IMG/VR virus record: IMGVR_UViG_3300050030_000136
Location: 1 to 38,932 of that record
Length of the DNA: 38,932 bases
Direction: 5' to 3' (one strand)
Origin: a virus
In this document: one piece after another, positions 1,168-35,218 of the stretch
Layout: every line of letters begins with the position of its first letter
Position numbering within the stretch: position 1 is the stretch's first letter
Program-made: the position numbers and the translations under genes
The notes under the pieces: model-generated
The model's database searches: none
Seen by the model: the letters and a program-made list of their open reading frames with translations, nothing else
What the model was told of the DNA's origin: nothing

Positions 1168-2004
1168 ATGGCAGATAGAGATGAATTTAGCATAGAAAAT
1201 GAGGCTTCAATAGAAATGGACGAAAATAAGAACTTTTTGGCTTTATCGCCACAAAATAGTATAAAAGCTCTACAAAAAGTCGATGCGCTTACTAAAGTGG
1301 TCGATGGTGCGGTCAGGCTTGCATTACAGCGTACTGTTGCACAAGATTGGGTAAATATGGGTGGTAAGTGGTATTTGCAAGCATCGGGCGTTGAAAAGGT
1401 CAGAAGTGTATTTGGACTTTACTTCAAAAGTATGGCAACAATTAAAGAAACTTTTGCAGATGGAACTTACGCTTATATTACATCTGGAACGGCAGGTTGT
1501 AAACTTCTTGATAATCTATATGGCGAAACCACAATACAAATTGAAGGTTGCCGTTCGTCAGCAGACCAATTCTTTTCAAAACAAGCTGTTACTGACCCAA
1601 TGGACGTAAGACGCTCATCTTATGCAAACTTTACAGTAAGAGCAGCAAAGGCATTATTAGGTTTTGGTAATTATACAACTGCTGATTTACAAGCTATGGG
1701 TGTAAAAGTAGGAGATTCAACTAAAGTAACATACGAAAAAGGTGCAGAAGGTGGAGTAAAAACTGGTTGCATATCAGAACCACAAGCAAAAAGACTTTGG
1801 GCTTTATGTAAAGCTAATAGTATTTCTGAAATAGCAATTAAGAAGTATTTAAAAGAAACATATAGTCTTGATACGAGTAAGAATATATTGCGTAAAGACT
1901 ATGAAACTATATGTAATTGGGTTGAAGCTGGTGGTGTAACACAACCAAAACGTGATATACAGGCAGAAATTGATGAACTAATGGGTGATGAAGATAAAGG
2001 ATAA
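1168..2004 (+). CDS. Putative single-strand annealing-type recombination protein
   Basis: 278 aa. The central part (about residues 60-180, with WVNMGGKWYLQASGVEKV and SSYANFTVRAAKALLGFGNY) resembles a phage family found beside RecB-like nucleases. The C-terminal segment at about 202-252, beginning ISEPQAKRLWALCK, is the small helical domain often found at the end of Erf/RecT/Rad52-like annealing proteins. The nuclease gene follows after two bases, mirroring the annealase-exonuclease pairs of other phages. The expected role is pairing single strands during replication and repair. The start is ATG after AGAAAGGA. The family call rests on remembered similarity and context, so it is moderate. Confidence 0.55.
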   Translation: MADRDEFSIENEASIEMDENKNFLALSPQNSIKALQKVDALTKVVDGAVRLALQRTVAQDWVNMGGKWYLQASGVEKVRSVFGLYFKSMATIKETFADGTYAYITSGTAGCKLLDNLYGETTIQIEGCRSSADQFFSKQAVTDPMDVRRSSYANFTVRAAKALLGFGNYTTADLQAMGVKVGDSTKVTYEKGAEGGVKTGCISEPQAKRLWALCKANSISEIAIKKYLKETYSLDTSKNILRKDYETICNWVEAGGVTQPKRDIQAEIDELMGDEDKG

Positions 2005-2006
2005 AT

Positions 2007-3017
2007 ATGAAAAAACTAATTGAAGCAATAGAAAAGATTAAGACTGATATACAGACTAATCTCAAAAGTCAATGTAAGATTTTGCCTCATAACTCTAATT
2101 GGGCAAGTATATTGGCAAGGCCGTGTATCAGACAACAAGTATATTATCGTCTTGATTGGGAAAAACAATCTTTGCCTAATGAGTTTTTACAGGGAATATT
2201 TAATACAGGACTTCTTGTAGAAGATATGACTATAAATACTTTGAATCGCATAGGTTTAATGGCTAACCCAAAATGGCAACTATTGAAGATACCTGATAAG
2301 ATTAACGATAAAGCTCTTGCGGAAGTTCAAATTGGTTCGGTAACTGACGTATTCTTGATAATCTACGATGAAAATGGAAAACCAGTTAATCTTGGCCCAG
2401 TAGAAATAAAGAGTATAGACCCAAATAAATTCAAAACCATAAACAAAATAGAAGACTTCCAAAAAAGCTATTGGATGAAACCATATGAAGGACAATTATC
2501 GGTTTATATGTTCGGAAGTAACTTTGAACAGGGTGCATTTTTATTGGTGAATAAAACTAACTGGTGGGATTATAAGATATTACCATATCAACTCGATATG
2601 TCTTTTATGCAAAGACTATTGAATACGGCCAAGCTTGTCAATTCATTTGTTCAAACAAAACAATATCCAGACAGAATTGACGATAAGAATGAATGTAAAA
2701 ACTGTCCATTTAAGACTTTTTGCCTTCCTGATGAATGTTCAGATTTAATAGAACTTGTTGATAGTGAAGAACTTACGCAGCTTCTCGAGCAAAGAGATTC
2801 ACTACAAGAAGCATCAAAAGAGTACGATGAAATAGACAAAACTATAAAGGAAATGCTACAAGCTAATAAAGACGGTATTTACTTGATTGGCGGGAAATAT
2901 CAAATTAAACTTTCAACTTATGACAGGTCAAGTTATGATATTCCTAATGATGTAAAAAGTAAATATTTAGAAAAAGTACCGTGTAGAAAAACGAATATTA
3001 CCAAAATAAAGGATTAA
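2007..3017 (+). CDS. Cas4/RecB-like PD-(D/E)XK nuclease with Fe-S cysteines
   Basis: 336 aa. The nuclease core shows a family-typical acidic residue E72 (GLLVED), then the GSVTD motif with D114 and E133-I-K135 (GPVEIKS), the metal-binding PD-(D/E)XK triad. Four cysteines are placed as in Cas4 and AddB: C40 in RPCIRQQ near the N-terminus, then C230-x2-C233-x5-C239, expected to hold a 4Fe-4S cluster that pins the fold. The C-terminal 90 residues are an acidic helical tail. The protein probably resects DNA ends for the annealing protein encoded just upstream, a lambda Exo/Beta-like arrangement. AAAGGA precedes the ATG. No cas1 or CRISPR repeat is near, so a CRISPR role is unlikely. Confidence 0.8.
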   Translation: MKKLIEAIEKIKTDIQTNLKSQCKILPHNSNWASILARPCIRQQVYYRLDWEKQSLPNEFLQGIFNTGLLVEDMTINTLNRIGLMANPKWQLLKIPDKINDKALAEVQIGSVTDVFLIIYDENGKPVNLGPVEIKSIDPNKFKTINKIEDFQKSYWMKPYEGQLSVYMFGSNFEQGAFLLVNKTNWWDYKILPYQLDMSFMQRLLNTAKLVNSFVQTKQYPDRIDDKNECKNCPFKTFCLPDECSDLIELVDSEELTQLLEQRDSLQEASKEYDEIDKTIKEMLQANKDGIYLIGGKYQIKLSTYDRSSYDIPNDVKSKYLEKVPCRKTNITKIKD

Positions 3018-3021
3018 TGAT

Positions 3022-3180
3022 ATGCTCGTACTTACACAAAATAAAGATGAAGAAATAGTAATTCAAAATGCTAATGGTGAAATAATCATAAGAAAAGGTG
3101 AAGATTATGGTAGAATTGCCATAGAAGCACCAAAAGAATATAGTATATTTAGACGTGAAAATTCAAAGAAAACTATTTAA
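3022..3180 (+). CDS. csrA: CsrA/RsmE-family RNA-binding regulator, 52 aa
   Basis: A compact CsrA homologue. It aligns with E. coli CsrA without a gap through residue 46: MLVLT at the start, E10, I14, R31, the A36-P37-K38-E39 turn, S41, and R44, the arginine critical for GGA recognition in known CsrA. Position 6 is Gln and position 7 Asn where bacterial CsrA has Arg, and the C-terminal tail is cut to 52 residues (usual length about 61). CsrA works as a homodimer that binds GGA in hairpin loops, often over ribosome sites. AAAGGA stands 9 bases before the ATG, in the same operon as the nuclease. It could reprogramme host or phage mRNA; the targets are unknown. Confidence 0.85.
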   Translation: MLVLTQNKDEEIVIQNANGEIIIRKGEDYGRIAIEAPKEYSIFRRENSKKTI

Positions 3181-3194
3181 GAAAGGACTCACAA

Positions 3195-3341
3195 ATGGAA
3201 GAATTGATTAAGAAACTTGAGGCGTTGTTAGTTAAATTCCCAAAACAAAACAGAGAGTGCTATAAGGTCATTACAGAAGTTGTAGTTGGTCTTAAAGCAT
3301 TAGTACCTGTACCTGAACCAGAACAACCCAAAGAGGTATAA
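3195..3341 (+). CDS. Hypothetical protein, 48 aa
   Basis: A helical N-terminal part (MEELIKKLEALLVKFPKQN) is followed by a Pro/Glu-rich tail (PVPEPEQPKE). The AAGAAAGGACTCACAA leader gives a good ribosome site. Its stop abuts the RusA start codon, so the two are probably coupled. No family recognised. Confidence 0.6.
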   Translation: MEELIKKLEALLVKFPKQNRECYKVITEVVVGLKALVPVPEPEQPKEV

Positions 3342-3758
3342 ATGCCGTCTATAAAATTTACAGTCTATGGTGAGCCTACAGCATTGAAAAGACATAATAT
3401 GTATAGGCATAAAGGGAAACTAATTTCTGTAAATCCCTCATCTAAACAAGAAGATGATTTTCTTGCTTTGGCTCACCAAAATAGACCTGATATGCCAATA
3501 AATACAAGTACTGCCATATCATTAAGTTTCTTTTTTGGTAGACCGAAATATCATTATGGAACAGGCAAAAACTCGTTAATATTGAAAGAAAAAGCACCAA
3601 AAGCTCATACATCAAGACCAGATATAGATAACTTAATAAAATTTGTATTCGACTCACTTAATGGCGTATTTTGGTCTGATGACAGTATTATATCAGATAT
3701 AATATCGCATAAATTTTATGACGTAAGGCCAAGAACTGAAATAGAAATAATTTACTAA
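3342..3758 (+). CDS. rusA: RusA-family Holliday junction resolvase
   Basis: 138 aa, close to the usual RusA length of about 120. The RusA hallmark is clear at residues 91-114: SRPDIDNLIKFVFDSLNG then VFWSDDS. D94, D96 and D113/D114 match the catalytic aspartates of the family, and K100 also fits. The N-terminus IKFTVYGEPTALKR is the typical first strand. RusA dimers cut four-way junctions, resolving recombination or replication intermediates before packaging. It completes a recombination set with the annealing-like protein and the nuclease upstream. The ATG directly follows the previous TAA, with AGAGG as ribosome site. Confidence 0.9.
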   Translation: MPSIKFTVYGEPTALKRHNMYRHKGKLISVNPSSKQEDDFLALAHQNRPDMPINTSTAISLSFFFGRPKYHYGTGKNSLILKEKAPKAHTSRPDIDNLIKFVFDSLNGVFWSDDSIISDIISHKFYDVRPRTEIEIIY

Positions 3759-3844: not shown

Positions 3845-5296
3845 ATGAAAAAGTTACTTTTTTCGTTACTGTTCACCTTGATTATGTCCTGCTCTGGTTA
3901 TTGTGGTATTGTTACTATTAATGGGCTTCCATTAGTAATAAAGGAAAATTTCATCTACTTTGATAATTACTACTCTTATTGGGGGAAACAACAACCACAG
4001 ATATTTGCAGCCTATATCGTTTTCTCTGCTGATGTAACTTACGGTATTGGGGAATATAAACAGTCAGCAAAAGGTAAAAAAGTAAAGTTTAATCTTAATG
4101 GCAGCATAGGTGGACAAGGGAAATACTATCAACATTATTTAACAGGCAGCCAAAACATATTTGGAACTTATGGTTTTGTAGTTCCATATCCAGCAAACGG
4201 ATGTACTGATGAAACTGGACATATAGAATGGAAAGTTGGAATAGGTGATAAAACATTTGGATATGTAAAATACCATCCAAATGGCCCATTTCCAGATGAA
4301 TTAGTACGTTTACCAAAAGAACCACATTCACAGTTTTCTTTAGTAAATTGTTCTGTTTCTGCTTGGCAAGGAATAAAAACAGTAGAAACTCCAGCCTACT
4401 TTGCATTTGTTGTAAGTGCGCCTCACTATTCTGAAGACCCAATATTACAACAAAAGTTTGGAAATATAAGCTTTGCAGATGCTTCAATGGCAGAATTAGG
4501 AGAACCTGACCCTGCTCTTATAGATGCAATAACTGGATTAGGTAAAATGTCAATTAAAACCACGTCAGAATCTAACTCTATACAAGAAACATTAGACCCA
4601 AATTATAAGTTTCCAGATATTCAAATTTCGCCACCAATACAATATGGTTGGAGTATTTATGGTGATGGATTCTATACTTTATTAGATGGAAATATGTTTG
4701 GAAAATCAAATAGATTTTTCGCTCATAATTTACAAGAAATATCAGACCCTAATGAGGTAAAAAGTTACTTATCTTTAAATTCGCCATACTGTTATGTGAA
4801 AACTATAAATGTACCAAATGCTATTAATTATAACTCAAAAGGTTATACGGCATTTGCTTGTGCAGTAAATAACAATAATGAGATATATAACTCATTTCCT
4901 ATATTTATGACAGTATTGAAAAAAACGAGTAATACTGTAACATTTATATCGGACTATTTTTATGCGGTTGATTATACTTCAACTGGTGTACGTTATGATA
5001 AACACGGAAATAAGTTTGTATGTGTTCCAGCTATAGAAGATGGTAATATAGTTATAAACCCAATATCTCCAAGTAATTATGGCGATTTTAACAATGATAG
5101 AAAGGTCAATCTAATTGATTTTGCCAAATTTTCAGAGTATTTTGGAAAGACAACACAAGACTCAGATTTTGACAGTATGTATGATTTTAATAATAATGGC
5201 AAAGTCGATTTGTCAGATTTCGTACGTTTTCAAATGAATTGGCTAAATGATAAGACTTTTGGTATATTTATCAAAGAAATAGTAATTAATTATTGA
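3845..5296 (+). CDS. Secreted protein with C-terminal type I dockerin
   Basis: 483 aa. Residues 1-20 form a signal peptide (MKKLLFSLLFTLIMSCSGYC), with an imperfect lipobox at C16. Residues 20-415 are a Tyr-, Asn- and Phe-rich beta-type region I cannot assign. Residues 418-470 hold two dockerin repeats with EF-hand-like calcium loops, GDFNNDRKVNLIDFAKFSEY and YDFNNNGKVDLSDFVRFQMN. The F-x-x-F-x-x-x-W/F ending is typical of Phycisphaerae dockerins rather than clostridial ones (L-K-R-Y). Dockerins bind cohesins on surface or secreted scaffolds. The protein is probably exported by the infected cell as a host-modifying factor, a lysis component or a surface-exclusion factor. It follows the structured leader and precedes lysis-like genes. 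Confidence 0.75.
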   Translation: MKKLLFSLLFTLIMSCSGYCGIVTINGLPLVIKENFIYFDNYYSYWGKQQPQIFAAYIVFSADVTYGIGEYKQSAKGKKVKFNLNGSIGGQGKYYQHYLTGSQNIFGTYGFVVPYPANGCTDETGHIEWKVGIGDKTFGYVKYHPNGPFPDELVRLPKEPHSQFSLVNCSVSAWQGIKTVETPAYFAFVVSAPHYSEDPILQQKFGNISFADASMAELGEPDPALIDAITGLGKMSIKTTSESNSIQETLDPNYKFPDIQISPPIQYGWSIYGDGFYTLLDGNMFGKSNRFFAHNLQEISDPNEVKSYLSLNSPYCYVKTINVPNAINYNSKGYTAFACAVNNNNEIYNSFPIFMTVLKKTSNTVTFISDYFYAVDYTSTGVRYDKHGNKFVCVPAIEDGNIVINPISPSNYGDFNNDRKVNLIDFAKFSEYFGKTTQDSDFDSMYDFNNNGKVDLSDFVRFQMNWLNDKTFGIFIKEIVINY

Positions 5297-8329: not shown

Positions 8330-8399
8330 CGTATCTGTTCCCATCAGGGTCATCGTCAATATCTTCACCCGAATCTATTACGAAATCTGGAGTTATCAT
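8319..8399 (-). CDS. Tiny acidic peptide, 26 aa
   Basis: The ATG overlaps the TGA of the 1,429-residue protein (ATGA junction), and the stop lies 11 bases inside the ATP-grasp gene start, so the three frames are chained. The peptide is extremely acidic (10 Asp and 1 Glu in 26), ending DDDPDGNRYDDD. It may be a real peptide, a coupling device for ATP-grasp translation, or a chance frame. The tight overlap on both sides is the only support. Confidence 0.4.
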   Translation of the reverse strand: MITPDFVIDSGEDIDDDPDGNRYDDD

Positions 8400-11300
8400 T
8401 TTACAAGTTTATTGGCGGATTTAGCTAAAGCTATTCTTTGCTTTTCTAATTTGGCTATTTTCTCAGATTTTTGGCTTCCGTTAATTATGGTTGATTTTGT
8501 AATAATATCTATTCTTTTATTAATTTCACCTAATTGCTTAGAAATAGAATTTAATGTACTTGCCATAGCAAATTTTGGATTTTCTTTTGAAAGTTTTACA
8601 GCATCTTTAATTCTTCCATCTTTAATCATTTTATTATAAGTAGTCTGTATAGAAGTGTACTCTTTAAGATTTTTATAGAATTTATTTATACTTTCTGCCT
8701 GACCTGTTTCCATAGGACTTTTTAGAGTTGTACCATATAATAAAGGATAACGAGTAATATCAGTAGGTTTTATAGGTACTTTTTGGCCTGATTCTTTTTT
8801 AATAGAATTTATCAGGTAATCACCAACTCCTGTTATATATCTTTCTGAACCTCCCAAATACCCCTGTGCAAGATTTTCTATTTTTGCAGGTGAATAATTT
8901 ATTATTTTACCAATTTGCTTTGCAGTTTCTGAAGTATACTTTGTAGATTGTTCAGACGGTTCTAAGTTTTCTATTCCTTGAGGTAATATAGATTGTTGTC
9001 TAAAGAAGTTATAGTTAGTAGCATTTTCTATAAATGGTTTAACTGCTGTAGCAAGCATACCAGAAGAAGGGTCTCCAGAAGTAGGTAGTACTGAATCAAA
9101 GGTGGATTTGGCTAATCCATCAAATGCAGATTTATCTTTTGTATCAAGATATTCCATAAATCTTTCTGGTACAGAACTGAAAACTTGACCATAAAGAAAT
9201 GGTTTAGGTACTCTTGCGTAAACCTTTGTTCCTGGAACTTTTATACACCAAAATAGGTCTTTTTGCCATCTTGGTATTTCTTTGAAATCTGGGTCATTTC
9301 TATTAATCATATATAAAATTACAGAAGGAACTGTTAATGCGGCAATTCCTTTTACAGAAGTTCCAACTGGGTCTTTAATAACAGTTCTTATAGTCTTTTC
9401 AGTGCCTTGAACTCCAGCGTTAAAAAATGCCATAAGTTGATTTATGTCTTTTGTCCTTGAACCTCTAACACCAAAATCTACTGTGGCCTCACGACTTTCA
9501 AAACCAGATTCTATATCAGACAATCCTTTTTCTTTTGCTGTTTTGAAAACCGCTACTCTTGTTGCCTGTTCCATTAACTGACTTAAATCTTGTGCAGTAT
9601 GAATAATATTCAGTTTTTCTACAAGTCCTTTTTGACTCATTAATTCTTTATATGCAGCTTTTAATTTTGGTCTTGATAATTCAACAAAACCACTATATGC
9701 ACCTCCAGAACGTAACCAATCATAATAAACATCACTTTTATTCATAATATCTGCTATTGCTTTTACACTATCGTGTAAAGGAGTAAATCCAAACTTGGCT
9801 TGCATCATAGCACCCATTTGGTCTCTTGTTGGATTTCTTATAATAAATTCTGGAGTTATAGTAGCAGCAGTTCTTAATAGTCTTGCTGGTGCAGATAAAA
9901 TCTTAACAAGTAGACTTGATGATGTTTCATTCATTCCTGTCATAGCATCTTGTAGATTTTTAGGTACTTTATAATATTGTGGTTTACCATTCACAAAGAC
10001 TTCTATGCTATCTTTTGGTTTAAACGATGAAGGTCTAAAAATTGTACTTTCTATTGGTACTTCTTGAGTAATGACTCTTTGTATTTCACGAACAATTTGC
10101 TTAACAGTCTTTTCGACAGTTTCGCCAGTAGGTGTTTTTCCACCACTTGCTTGCGATTCAATCTTTCTTATATAATTTCCAGCTTCTGATTCGGTCATAC
10201 CTCTATGGACAAGTGCATCGACTACTACTTTTTTAAGTTTATCCATAGGCGTTTTAGCGTCTACAGTTTGACCATCTTTTGTTCTTTTTGTAGTTTCAGT
10301 TGCTTCTTGTACTACTTGAGATACGTTCTTCCTAAAGGTTCTGACTTCGGTAGATATTTCTTTAGGGTCTACCTTTATAGGACGCATTTTTATATGTTGT
10401 CTAACTATTTCATCTGGAAACATTTTCTTTAATTTTATTACATCTCTTGCAACCGTGTTTCTTTCAGAAGTATCCATAATCCTATGGACGTTTTTAATTA
10501 CACTTTCAATAACGTCTTGTTTTGGACGTAAAGAACCCTTAATCTTTCTAATAAATGAACGTGCCTCTGAAAATGGTTTATTAGATTTTGGAGTTCCAGA
10601 TATACCTTCTGCTATATCCATAATCCTATCAAATGGAATATAGTTTGGATTTTCTTTAAGGATTCGAGCATATTGAGCTTTAGACATATTGCCACTGTCT
10701 ACAAGTAAATGTAAAACTCGCTTTTGGAAATCATAGATTCTTATAGCAGTTTTGTCGAAAATAGACATATTTTCGCCATACTTTTTGTCAAGATTGTCCA
10801 TAATTTTTTGAGCTTCGGCAACCTGTTCTTTGGTTACTATATTTTCTTCACTACCTTCGTACTTTGGTTTTTGCAAGTCCTCAATAGTTCTTCGTGATAT
10901 AAGATAATCTTTTAAGTCTTGTGGTGAAGCAGTCTTTCCAAAGAAAAACTCTCTGGTTTTTTGTGCAAAGGTAGGTTTTTTACCAATATCAGATACACTT
11001 TTTTCAAAATCTTCAATTATGGGTTTTAGACCTTCGCCAGTAATTTCTATATTACCTTCTTTGTTTATCTTGTATGTTTTATCTTCTAATACCGATTCTG
11101 CCTTTTTACCAGTACCTAAATAACTACGAGAGCGCAACTTAGGGTCTTCTCCAGGTTTTATAGTAAGACCAAGTTTCTTAGCCTTTTCTCCTGCATTTTC
11201 AATAGAAGCAAAACGATTAATAACAGATTGATAAGCATTTTCTGCCGCTTCGCCTATTTTTGTACCTTTAAGAGTAATCTTTTTAGACTCTTGTGGTGGT

Positions 11301-12685
11301 TGTCCTTCAATAGGAACATCTGGTGGTTTTGGAGGTTCTTGTGGAGGTTTAGGTGGTTTTACATCAGCACCTAAATCTTCACTATGCAAATTGTCATTTG
11401 GTTTTGGTATTTGACCTGCCTCATAAGCTACTTTGCCACCTTCATTTCTATTTACAAAACGACCTTCGTTTGTAACGAATCCTTCTTCAAAGCCTTGTGG
11501 TGCATCTTCTTGTTTTAAACCAAGTTTATCATACGCTTCTTGATGATATTGACCTTCTATTATTTCTCCGTCAGGAGTTTTTATAGCAGCAGATTTTATA
11601 GTTTCACCTTGTTTTGTAGGTGGACTTATTTGATTAAGGTCTTTCTTTGGTGGTAAATCAGTTTCCATTTGCTCTTTTTGAGCCATTTGTTCATATATAA
11701 ATTTAGGTGGTTTTTTACTTTCTAAATCTTTAATAGCTTTATCGGCCCAATCTTCGCCTTTATATGGCGTTAAAACTTCAATATCTTCTGGTTTAAGTTT
11801 ACCTTCTTCAGCAGCTTTTTGGATTATAGGTTTACGGATAAGATTTTCAGTTTGGTATTTCATTTGTGCTGCAGCAAGTTCGGCCTTGCCAGTAGGCGCG
11901 CCGCTTAAATCAACCTTGCTTAAATCGCGTTTAGGCATTGATTGCGTTTCGGGGGTAACATTGGTCGGGGCAACAGGTTTTGACGCATCTGGGTCGATTG
12001 TAGACGGTTTTTGACCCTTGCCAGCGTAAGGCGTTAATATCGCGCCCATAGCCGTTTGTGCGGCAACGTCTTTTAAAGGTACACCTTCAACTGCTGCAGT
12101 ACCACCCATAGTTGCAGCGCCAGCACCACGTCTTAAATATGGATTTTTAATAGACCCTATCATTTTTAGCATTTTACCCAAAATTAATCTTTGTGCCGCG
12201 CCTTTTGCAGCACCCATCAACATAGATTTTCCTTCACGTTTTGCTTGCGCAGCACCTTGCATACCTCCATAAATAGTACCTGCTTCCCATTGTGCAAGTC
12301 CTACTGGCAAAGAACCTATTACTTGACCAACAAAATTATCAACTGAATTTGCACCTGATTTTGCGGCTTCTTTATCCCAATAATCAGCATTTACTGTAAG
12401 ATGTTTTGCGATATTATTAATTAATGAATCGTCTTTTAATTCTTTACTACCAGTATATTGACGTACTACATTAGCCATATCTTGAATATCAGTCATAAAC
12501 GATGCGGCAGATTTTTCAGCACCGCTTATTGCACCTAATTCAGCGTGTAATGGTACATTTAACTTTTCTATAAAAGAAGGTTTTCTATCTGGTTGAGTTT
12601 CTAGCTCAAATCCTTGTGGAACATTTGTTTGTGGTTGTTGTTCTATTTCAAAACCAGTAGGTAAATTTATTTGGTTACTTGCCAC
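8396..12685 (-). CDS. Giant polyvalent virion protein with LPD38-like domain
   Basis: 1,429 aa, the largest gene. The N-terminus has two short repeats (PTGFEIEQQPQ, PQGFELETQPD). Residues 130-220 are Gly/Ala-rich and may insert in membranes. The middle is Pro- and Lys-rich linker, with FVTNEGRFVNRNEGGK, a motif shared by many phage proteins. About residues 900-1320 match the large polyvalent-protein-associated domain LPD38 (PEFIIRNPTRDQMGA, VDFGVRGSRTKDINQL, AFFNAGVQGTEKTIR). Such proteins are carried in the head and ejected with DNA in podoviruses. GTG start, overlapping the previous gene by 19 bases. Confidence 0.75.
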   Translation of the reverse strand: MASNQINLPTGFEIEQQPQTNVPQGFELETQPDRKPSFIEKLNVPLHAELGAISGAEKSAASFMTDIQDMANVVRQYTGSKELKDDSLINNIAKHLTVNADYWDKEAAKSGANSVDNFVGQVIGSLPVGLAQWEAGTIYGGMQGAAQAKREGKSMLMGAAKGAAQRLILGKMLKMIGSIKNPYLRRGAGAATMGGTAAVEGVPLKDVAAQTAMGAILTPYAGKGQKPSTIDPDASKPVAPTNVTPETQSMPKRDLSKVDLSGAPTGKAELAAAQMKYQTENLIRKPIIQKAAEEGKLKPEDIEVLTPYKGEDWADKAIKDLESKKPPKFIYEQMAQKEQMETDLPPKKDLNQISPPTKQGETIKSAAIKTPDGEIIEGQYHQEAYDKLGLKQEDAPQGFEEGFVTNEGRFVNRNEGGKVAYEAGQIPKPNDNLHSEDLGADVKPPKPPQEPPKPPDVPIEGQPPQESKKITLKGTKIGEAAENAYQSVINRFASIENAGEKAKKLGLTIKPGEDPKLRSRSYLGTGKKAESVLEDKTYKINKEGNIEITGEGLKPIIEDFEKSVSDIGKKPTFAQKTREFFFGKTASPQDLKDYLISRRTIEDLQKPKYEGSEENIVTKEQVAEAQKIMDNLDKKYGENMSIFDKTAIRIYDFQKRVLHLLVDSGNMSKAQYARILKENPNYIPFDRIMDIAEGISGTPKSNKPFSEARSFIRKIKGSLRPKQDVIESVIKNVHRIMDTSERNTVARDVIKLKKMFPDEIVRQHIKMRPIKVDPKEISTEVRTFRKNVSQVVQEATETTKRTKDGQTVDAKTPMDKLKKVVVDALVHRGMTESEAGNYIRKIESQASGGKTPTGETVEKTVKQIVREIQRVITQEVPIESTIFRPSSFKPKDSIEVFVNGKPQYYKVPKNLQDAMTGMNETSSSLLVKILSAPARLLRTAATITPEFIIRNPTRDQMGAMMQAKFGFTPLHDSVKAIADIMNKSDVYYDWLRSGGAYSGFVELSRPKLKAAYKELMSQKGLVEKLNIIHTAQDLSQLMEQATRVAVFKTAKEKGLSDIESGFESREATVDFGVRGSRTKDINQLMAFFNAGVQGTEKTIRTVIKDPVGTSVKGIAALTVPSVILYMINRNDPDFKEIPRWQKDLFWCIKVPGTKVYARVPKPFLYGQVFSSVPERFMEYLDTKDKSAFDGLAKSTFDSVLPTSGDPSSGMLATAVKPFIENATNYNFFRQQSILPQGIENLEPSEQSTKYTSETAKQIGKIINYSPAKIENLAQGYLGGSERYITGVGDYLINSIKKESGQKVPIKPTDITRYPLLYGTTLKSPMETGQAESINKFYKNLKEYTSIQTTYNKMIKDGRIKDAVKLSKENPKFAMASTLNSISKQLGEINKRIDIITKSTIINGSQKSEKIAKLEKQRIALAKSANKLVK

Positions 12686-25531: not shown

Positions 25532-26020
25532 TTATGCCACCCTTTCTACAAGCGGAAAGTTAAGTCTTGCAAAGTCGCCAAAAAGCCACATAGCGTGTAT
25601 GTCGTAAGCATATGCGGCATCAATTTCATTTGTAAATTCACCTAAATTATATATTTTATAATCTTTATTTATTCTTACTCTCCATTTATTTCTTTTTTTA
25701 GAAAAATCTACTCCTTTATATTTTGATATTCCTTTAATCTTTATTCTATTTTGCTGATTTTCTGAATAATTACATAAACGGAGATTTTCTTTGCGATTAT
25801 CTAATCCATTACAGTTTATATGGTCTATTTGTTTCTTATCATTTTTAACCAATAATAACACTTCACGGTGCATTTTTATAGTAGAATGTTTCCCTAAATG
25901 CCTCCAAGCATACCAACAGTTTCTTAATTTGCTTGAATACCATTTATGTTTATTTAATCTATCAAAGTCCTCATCATCGACTAATGCAACTTTATTTTGA
26001 GTTAATTGTATTTCTTTCAC
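25532..26020 (-). CDS. Free-standing HNH-AP2 homing endonuclease
   Basis: 162 aa. HNH residues: H51 in KMHRE, D66-H67 in IDHIN and N75/N79 in LDNRKENL. The C-terminal domain (about 98-155: YKGVDFSKKRNKWRVRI, then YAYDIHAMWLFGDFARLNFP) is AP2/ERF-type DNA-binding. The pair is a known mobile phage endonuclease layout. Start is GTG at 26020, overlapping the portal TGA, with the strong GGGAGGTGA site inside portal. It likely entered between portal and the next gene and spreads itself by gene conversion. Confidence 0.9.
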   Translation of the reverse strand: MKEIQLTQNKVALVDDEDFDRLNKHKWYSSKLRNCWYAWRHLGKHSTIKMHREVLLLVKNDKKQIDHINCNGLDNRKENLRLCNYSENQQNRIKIKGISKYKGVDFSKKRNKWRVRINKDYKIYNLGEFTNEIDAAYAYDIHAMWLFGDFARLNFPLVERVA

Positions 26021-33455: not shown

Positions 33456-34277
33456 ATGAAAGAACAATTAATTACAGTATCAAAAACTCGTAGGGTTGCA
33501 GAAGCCACAATAACACCAGAAGTCGCCCAAGAATTACTCAATAGACAAAGTGATTTACAAAGGAAGGTAAACGCAATACATTTGGGCAGATTGACAAATG
33601 TTATGGCTAATGGCTCTTGGAAAGACCTAAATGGCGATTCGATAAAGTTTGATAAGGACGGATTTTTGATTGATGGACAGCATAGACTATTGGCAGTAAT
33701 AAATAGTAAAAAAACCATTAAAACCTATGTGGCATTGGGATTAGACAAAGATGATATATATTTTATAGACCTTTGGCATAAAACAAGAGGAACATCTGAT
33801 GTATTTAAGATGAAAGGAGTAGATAATTATTGCGTTATAGCTTCTGCTGCAGCAAGTCTATGGAGATATGACAATGGAAGTTTCGCAGATAAAGTTACAT
33901 ATCCTGACCCCGAAGAAACCTTTAAATATTTTATGCAAAATCAAGGATTAATTATTAGTGCAAAATACGGAGAAACAGTGAAGAAAATGATAGGAAAATC
34001 TTTAGCTACATTTTTGCATTATACATTTGCTCGAATTAACCAAAATCAAGCAAGTAGGTTTTTTGAGGATTGGTCTACTGGTGCTAATCTTAATGCTGAT
34101 AGTCCTATACTACAACTTAGAAATAGACTTATGTATAATAAAAGAGAAGATGTTCAAATGAAACTTGACCCTGTAAATCAAGTTGCTCTTGTTATTTTAG
34201 CGTGGAACGCTATAAGGGAAAATAAAAAATATACAAAGTTAAGATGGACTGGAAATGCTTTCCCAGAAGCGATATGA
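33456..34277 (+). CDS. ParB-like (DGQHR) phage protein
   Basis: 273 aa. Residues 57-85 contain DLNGDSIKFDKDGFLIDGQH then RLLAV, the D-G-x-H-R motif of ParB/sulfiredoxin-fold phage proteins. The family may act on nucleotides or DNA, but no reaction is established for this branch. The C-terminal half is helical (FLHYTFARINQNQASRFF). Its TGA overlaps the radical SAM ATG (ATGA), showing tight coupling. AAAGGA precedes the ATG. Confidence 0.7.
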   Translation: MKEQLITVSKTRRVAEATITPEVAQELLNRQSDLQRKVNAIHLGRLTNVMANGSWKDLNGDSIKFDKDGFLIDGQHRLLAVINSKKTIKTYVALGLDKDDIYFIDLWHKTRGTSDVFKMKGVDNYCVIASAAASLWRYDNGSFADKVTYPDPEETFKYFMQNQGLIISAKYGETVKKMIGKSLATFLHYTFARINQNQASRFFEDWSTGANLNADSPILQLRNRLMYNKREDVQMKLDPVNQVALVILAWNAIRENKKYTKLRWTGNAFPEAI

Positions 34278-35218
34278 AGATACTTATTATCGACATAGAT
34301 TCAACAATTCCAAACGTAGCCTTGCATAAGGTCGCAAAATACTATGGCGACCAAGGCCACGAAGTCATTTGGAACAATCCGCTTTATAAACATATAGCTG
34401 ATAAAATATATGTAAGTTGTATCTTTAGTTATAATAAGCATTTATGTAATGAATGGGTTGGACACTCGGCAACTTCGATAGGGGGAAGTGGTTTCGATTT
34501 AAGCATAGCACTTCCCCCTGAAATCGAACAAATTAAGCCGAAAATTAATATAGGTTTTACTACAAGGGGTTGTATTAGAAATTGTCATTTTTGTATAGTC
34601 CCTAAAAAAGAAGGAAAAATACGAGTTGAAGGCGATATATTAGACTTATGGGATGGCAAGTCAAAAACTATTATGATTTTGGATAATAACATACTTGCCT
34701 TGCCTGAGCATTTTTTAAAGATTTGTAAACAGTTAAAAGATAACAACTTACGAGTAGATTTTAACCAAGGGTTAGATTTTAGATTATTGACTGATGATAT
34801 TTGTAAAGAGCTTTTTAGTTTAAAGCATTGTCAGGAAATCCGTTTTGCGTTTGATGATATTGCATATAAGGCTCGTGTTCTACTCGCCTTAGAAATGTTA
34901 AAACGAAATGGATTAAAGTCGTGGCAAACAAGATGGTATGTATATGTTGGAGTCAAAGACACACTTGAAACTGTTTACGAAAGATGTAAGCTTCTTTGTC
35001 AGGAAAAGCAGCTTATTTATATGATGCGAGATAGAGATAAATCTGTTCAGGAAAATAAACAGTTTATAGCTCTTGCCAAGTGGACAAATTGGACACCGTT
35101 TTTTAAATACGACTTTTATCAGGTGTTAGAAAAAAGCGAGCATTTTAAAGATTATAGAAAAGATTTTGGTCTAAAAGATAAACCAGTGGAACAGTATACA
35201 CAAAAGTTTGATTTTTGA
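34274..35218 (+). CDS. Radical SAM enzyme, B12-binding-like N-terminus
   Basis: 314 aa. The 4Fe-4S cluster motif TTRGCIRNCHFCIVPKKEG gives C100-x3-C104-x2-C107. It is preceded by IGGSGFDLSIALPPEIE and an N-terminal MKILIIDIDSTIPNVALHKV part that resembles the Rossmann fold of B12-binding radical SAM proteins, but without the D-x-H-x-x-G cobalamin motif. LDNNILALPEHF and VDFNQGLDFRLLT are typical of this phage-frequent family. The substrate is unknown; modification of a nucleic acid, nucleotide or protein is possible. The ATG overlaps the ParB-like stop. An in-frame ATG 30 bases earlier is not preferred. Confidence 0.85.
   Translation: MKILIIDIDSTIPNVALHKVAKYYGDQGHEVIWNNPLYKHIADKIYVSCIFSYNKHLCNEWVGHSATSIGGSGFDLSIALPPEIEQIKPKINIGFTTRGCIRNCHFCIVPKKEGKIRVEGDILDLWDGKSKTIMILDNNILALPEHFLKICKQLKDNNLRVDFNQGLDFRLLTDDICKELFSLKHCQEIRFAFDDIAYKARVLLALEMLKRNGLKSWQTRWYVYVGVKDTLETVYERCKLLCQEKQLIYMMRDRDKSVQENKQFIALAKWTNWTPFFKYDFYQVLEKSEHFKDYRKDFGLKDKPVEQYTQKFDF

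Follow-up and report, generated by a model that had tools for sequence, protein, structure and literature searches.

The csrA-like gene and its operon

The analysed stretch of DNA (the window) is a viral record of 38,932 bases. Its designation as a phage proved right, since the record gave matches to a terminase, a tail assembly chaperone and a head-tail adaptor. The csrA-like gene is part of an early recombination operon, in which it follows a gene for a Cas4-type exonuclease and precedes a small ORF and the gene for RusA. The features of this region are the following:

1168 to 2004, plus strand: gene of 278 aa, upstream in the same early operon; no PHROG match and a weak, sub-cut-off Pfam match
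2007 to 3017, plus strand: Cas4-domain exonuclease gene, 336 aa (phrog_1990, E 2.1e-18); its stop lies 4 nt before the csrA-like start
3010 to 3013, plus strand: Shine-Dalgarno-like AGGA, 8 nt upstream of the csrA-like ATG, found by sequence inspection
3022 to 3180, plus strand: csrA-like gene, 52 aa, with Q6-N7 in beta1, R44 and E46 retained, and most of the C-terminal helix absent
3195 to 3341, plus strand: ORF of 48 aa, located after the csrA-like gene and before RusA; Pfam, PHROG and PADLOC gave no match
3342 to 3758, plus strand: RusA Holliday junction resolvase gene (PF05866, E 5.9e-23; phrog_140, E 4.2e-32)

An earlier reading of the letters alone (the sequence-only reading) had placed a gene of 52 codons at 3022-3180, and an ORF of this length was indeed found there on the plus strand, with the product MLVLTQNKDEEIVIQNANGEIIIRKGEDYGRIAIEAPKEYSIFRRENSKKTI. 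Its frame had a codon-usage score of +25.5, the remaining five frames being all negative, and its codon use resembled that of other phage genes. The intact frame, the Shine-Dalgarno-like motif and the early operon position suggest that the gene is probably expressed. The first three bases of the record itself are an ATG and the last three a TGA (window positions 1 and 38932), and the rightward early operon is divided between the two record ends, as if the genome were circularly permuted or had been cut at gene boundaries.

The product is a CsrA-domain protein

The search against the CsrA family that the sequence-only reading had proposed gave a match of 37.6 bits to Pfam CsrA (PF02599; E 2.2e-9), above the gathering cut-off of 27. 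A six-frame Pfam search of the whole record returned a single CsrA match (E 4.4e-10, 35.4 bits), and the sole PHROG family matched by the protein was PHROG 9500, "CsrA-like regulator" (E 7.7e-5), with a weak score of 23.6 bits; the profile of this family is 65 positions long. We have also scored the protein with a viral CsrA profile from whose construction it had been left out, and obtained 43.1 bits, the highest score among 5000 shuffled sequences being 18.7. As a CsrA-domain protein on a phage genome, it belongs with the phage-encoded CsrA-like proteins of the PHROG 9500 kind.

The equivalog models gave another picture, with 29 bits against a cut-off of 70.1 for TIGR00202 and 26.6 bits against 73 for NF002469. 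Because both cut-offs were missed, the sequence identifies the product as a CsrA-domain protein and does not support its status as a CsrA orthologue. Hence, the term "phage-encoded CsrA homologue" used in the sequence-only reading holds at the level of the domain family, as seen with Pfam, PHROG and the six-frame search, but not in the sense of orthology.

Residues retained and lost

For comparison, csrA-like ORFs were collected from 101 viral loci; the 89 distinct sequences were aligned together with E. coli CsrA, giving a set of 90. The residues reported as conserved by the sequence-only reading (L4, E10, R31, A36-P37-K38-E39 and R44) are all present in the window protein. R44 and E46, which occur in 90/90 compared sequences, are both retained, as are L4 (89/90), A36-P37 and R31. 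L4 and R44 are described as particularly critical for RNA contact in CsrA (PMC7652899). The basic R6-K/R7 pair expected in beta1 is replaced by Q6-N7. Arginine had been described as usual at both positions; this is correct for position 6 (R in 90/90), but position 7 is usually lysine (K in 70 of the 90, R in 10). The pattern used for the first viral csrA scan was independent of position 6, so that the invariance of R6 is not purely a search artefact; the pattern used to scan bacterial genomes required R6, and R6 losses in bacteria are thus not countable from that scan.

Two further positions, hydrophobic and nearly invariant elsewhere, diverged: G30 occupies a site with V, I, A, T or C in the other 90 sequences, and N47 one with V, L or I in 88/90. 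At 52 aa, the window protein was shorter than any other of the set (the next having 53) and had by far the longest branch in the tree (8.7, the next being 5.05), although the tree tool flagged the placement of long branches as unsure. The reported loss of the C-terminal tail was borne out, the chain stopping at residue 52 with most of the helix missing. An unusual C-terminus is not unique to this protein, since in about one in four of the viral sequences the usual H43 is missing and the tail is of another kind. The gap-free alignment to position 46 was reproduced by Pfam, where profile positions 1-46 correspond to residues 1-46, but it may hide a +3/-3 residue compensation relative to the related phage proteins L006 and L022, whose beta2-beta3 turn is longer than that of the window protein.

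Structure prediction

We have modelled the window protein as a monomer with AlphaFold, using 34 relatives and producing five models. The predicted strands (2-4, 11-16, 19-24, 32-34 and 41-44) and a short helix (45-51) follow one another in the order seen in CsrA, with beta3 looking shortened. Confidence was low, the mean pLDDT spanning 58.8-74.3 over the five models, with 74.3 the best. A control phage CsrA (L009), run with the identical sequence set, reached a pLDDT of 90.4 and had a full C-terminal helix at 45-59, unlike the window protein. In Foldseek, this control gave 12 matches at E <=0.001, all of them CsrA/RsmA family structures (best 2.8e-5), showing that the method can recognise a CsrA monomer. 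Foldseek and VIA searches with the window monomer model listed no CsrA in the PDB or in the viral library. CsrA is natively an intertwined dimer in which peripheral strands are supplied by the partner (PMC7652899), and a poor monomer model is therefore not proof of an absent fold. The modelling result would nevertheless weigh somewhat against an ordinary CsrA dimer.

Relationship to known CsrA proteins

Phage csrA genes have been catalogued (PMC7366521; PMC8450108), and repression of CRISPR-Cas has been put forward as a role of phage CsrA (PMC8450108). In phage PTXU04, knock-down of the csrA homologue resulted in smaller plaques (PMC11879866). Phage-encoded CsrA is thus already known from work published in 2020-2025, and the window protein is an additional, unusually reduced and diverged member.

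With bacterial CsrA/RsmA (PF02599, TIGR00202) it shares the predicted strand order, L4, E10, R31, A36-P37-K38-E39, R44 and E46; identity to E. coli CsrA is 33%, and it lacks the R6-R7 and the full helix of the latter. Judged from the sequences, even the substitution that stands out most, that of R6, is not without precedent: gp46 of Burkholderia phage DC1 has I6-K7 and keeps R44. The Pfam scores of the two proteins are similarly weak (39.0 bits for DC1 gp46, 37.6 for the window protein) and limited to about residues 1-45, but the two are only 27% identical. The Lessievirus (Bcep22-like) proteins DC1 gp46 and JC1 gp47 further differ in having 64 aa, a longer C-terminus and no E46, and their genes are found near the portal among structural genes, whereas the window gene is among recombination genes.

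The long-turn IMG/VR phage proteins L006, L022, L073 and L090 end like the window protein in x-R44-x-E46, without H43, but all keep R6, have a beta3 that appears about 3 residues longer, measure 58-72 aa and score 50-57 Pfam bits. L006 is among the sequences closest to the window protein (46-49% identity). The 53-aa viral CsrA L070 has nearly the same length and a short basic tail replacing the helix, as in the window protein, but keeps R6-R7 and scores 72.1 Pfam bits.

The viral set contained two other arrangements. A 78.6 kb viral contig (IMGVR_UViG_3300032053_005312; L046 and L058) carries two csrA-like genes, one canonical and one long-turn, and the viral CsrA at L014:5001-5201 has its beta5 segment in tandem duplication (VSVHRREVSVHRREV).

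Sister phage, gene neighbourhood and host

A sister phage was found in IMGVR_UViG_3300027863_000071 (L194, L195 and L196; 41,254 bases). Its capsid-region protein is 77% identical to that of the window phage, and good matches were also obtained for the terminase and the head genes next to it. The early module is almost wholly different: no early gene of the window phage had a match there save one weak one, a replication initiation protein. A CsrA search of the sister's ORFs and of its whole record found nothing. The survey of related phages suggested by the sequence-only reading thus yielded a single near relative, which lacks the gene, and the csrA-like gene is therefore an accessory gene of a variable early module. 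Exact peptide scans of viral contigs revealed no close relatives of the CsrA-like protein, and no relatives were found in this way for the exonuclease or for the radical SAM protein described below.

Genes of the csrA type also lie near replication or recombination genes in the viral loci L005, L035 and L006 (ORFs read by eye), and in L035 RusA is directly downstream of csrA. L035 and L006 had suggested a general csrA-RusA neighbourhood, which we have rejected, RusA being present in 5/50 csrA-bearing viral records. The possibility that viral csrA genes are mislabelled flagellar fliW-csrA loci was likewise rejected, FliW being absent in 20/20 csrA-bearing records tested. One GenBank entry, "Bacteriophage sp." (MT836588.1; L002), has csrA directly after an ORF that reads by eye as FliW-like, and is probably a bacterial flagellar locus.

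Several other genes of the window drew attention. The gene at 3845-5296 (+) encodes a protein of 483 aa that appears to have a signal peptide and carries a type I dockerin domain at its C-terminus (Pfam 6.4e-9). Host searches with this protein yielded weak matches in 9/294 Planctomycetota genomes and in 4/293 genomes of the phylum to which a Clostridiales genome belongs, the planctomycete and clostridial matches being confined to the dockerin region; the terminase gave weak matches in 5/392 Planctomycetota genomes (25-32% identity). Host assignment through these two proteins was dropped, the matches being weak only. At 33456-35218 (+), a gene pair encodes a protein of the phrog_5931 family (E 4.9e-52; function unknown) and a radical SAM protein (phrog_9298). 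Relatives of the radical SAM protein occur in Bacteroides, Methanomassiliicoccales and Marinitoga phages, and on the viral contig L005 a gene related to it lies directly upstream of csrA. An HNH-like gene (read by eye) at 25532-26020 (-) lies between conserved head genes, has no match in the sister phage and looks like a mobile homing endonuclease; similar ORFs occur in five csrA-bearing viral contigs. Finally, 8396-12685 (-) encodes a protein of 1429 aa with the large polyvalent protein domain LPD38 (Pfam E 8.1e-42).

Proposed function and alternative explanations

We give about an even chance to the reading that the window protein is a reduced CsrA-domain, RNA-binding translational regulator of the early phase, probably homodimeric, with weakened or altered RNA contacts. 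The protein would be made together with the early recombination proteins of the phage and form a CsrA-type homodimer. Its L4 and R44 contacts would serve to bind GGA-containing leaders in mRNAs of the phage, of the host or of both. With Q6-N7 in place of R6 and K/R7, the beta1 contact would be weakened or altered, and the translation of bound mRNAs would change during infection. Of this picture, the gene, its domain family, the residues kept and lost and the operon are observed, and dimer formation, RNA binding, targets, timing and the effect on infection are inferred. This reading is supported by the Pfam and PHROG matches, the retention of R44, E46 and L4, the predicted strand order, the csrA-like genes of other phages and the plaque phenotype of PTXU04. 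Counted against it were the loss of R6, the departures G30 and N47, the apparently short beta3, the mostly missing helix, the low-confidence model with its lack of a match to a CsrA structure and the lack of binding-site enrichment. The window contains 16 CsrA consensus sites against 21.4 expected, which gives no support for self-regulation through strong consensus sites, and where GGA occurs near phage start codons, it is mostly at a Shine-Dalgarno position. On both counts, we have rejected CsrA-consensus targets in the phage's own RNA.

The sequence-only reading had proposed that the protein competes with or redirects host CsrA, a plausible hypothesis by analogy with RsmQ and PTXU04. In a specific form, which we consider unlikely, the window protein would strand-swap with host CsrA and hamper repression that depends on bridging two sites. 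Since each RNA site combines beta1 of one chain with beta5 of the other, the predicted heterodimer would have unequal sites, one weakened, pairing Q6-N7 of the phage chain with R44 of the host chain, and one good, pairing R6-R7 of the host chain with R44 of the phage chain. The asymmetric loss of R6/K7 with retention of R44 fits this proposal. For E. coli CsrA, it is established both how the sites are built and that some targets require two of them (PMC7652899), and RsmQ, a homologue encoded on a plasmid, forms heterodimers with the Rsm proteins of the host (PMC9928087). However, the host of the window phage is not known to possess CsrA, the protein's own dimer interface has diverged (G30, N47, short beta3), and its monomer model does not look dimer-ready, unlike that of the control. 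Taken furthest, the idea is that a minimal CsrA without R6 and nearly without helix would act as a one-sided partner, its heterodimers with host CsrA having a single good RNA site and dismantling two-site repression early in infection; this we regard as a long shot.

The same losses could be read as departure from RNA regulation. That the protein derives from CsrA but has lost specific RNA binding and taken another role, for example protein-binding or virion-associated, appears improbable to us. R6 and conserved core positions are indeed gone, the low-confidence model matched no CsrA, and in phage JC1 a single peptide in mass spectrometry hinted at a virion-associated CsrA (PMC9144972), but the functional positions conserved most strongly, R44 and E46, are retained and the gene sits among recombination, not structural, genes. 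Less probable still is a neutral passenger, an acquired csrA losing constraint, as the longest branch in the set, the loss of otherwise invariant residues and the absence from the sister phage might suggest: the frame is intact and preceded by a Shine-Dalgarno-like motif, codon use is like that of other phage genes, and R44, E46 and A36-P37 are still there.

Phages with CsrA-like genes could in principle rewire host translation. The window protein is among the smallest and most diverged examples, having lost a residue that is invariant in most relatives while keeping R44. It would therefore be a useful natural case for finding out how small a part of CsrA suffices for RNA binding or for interference with host CsrA.
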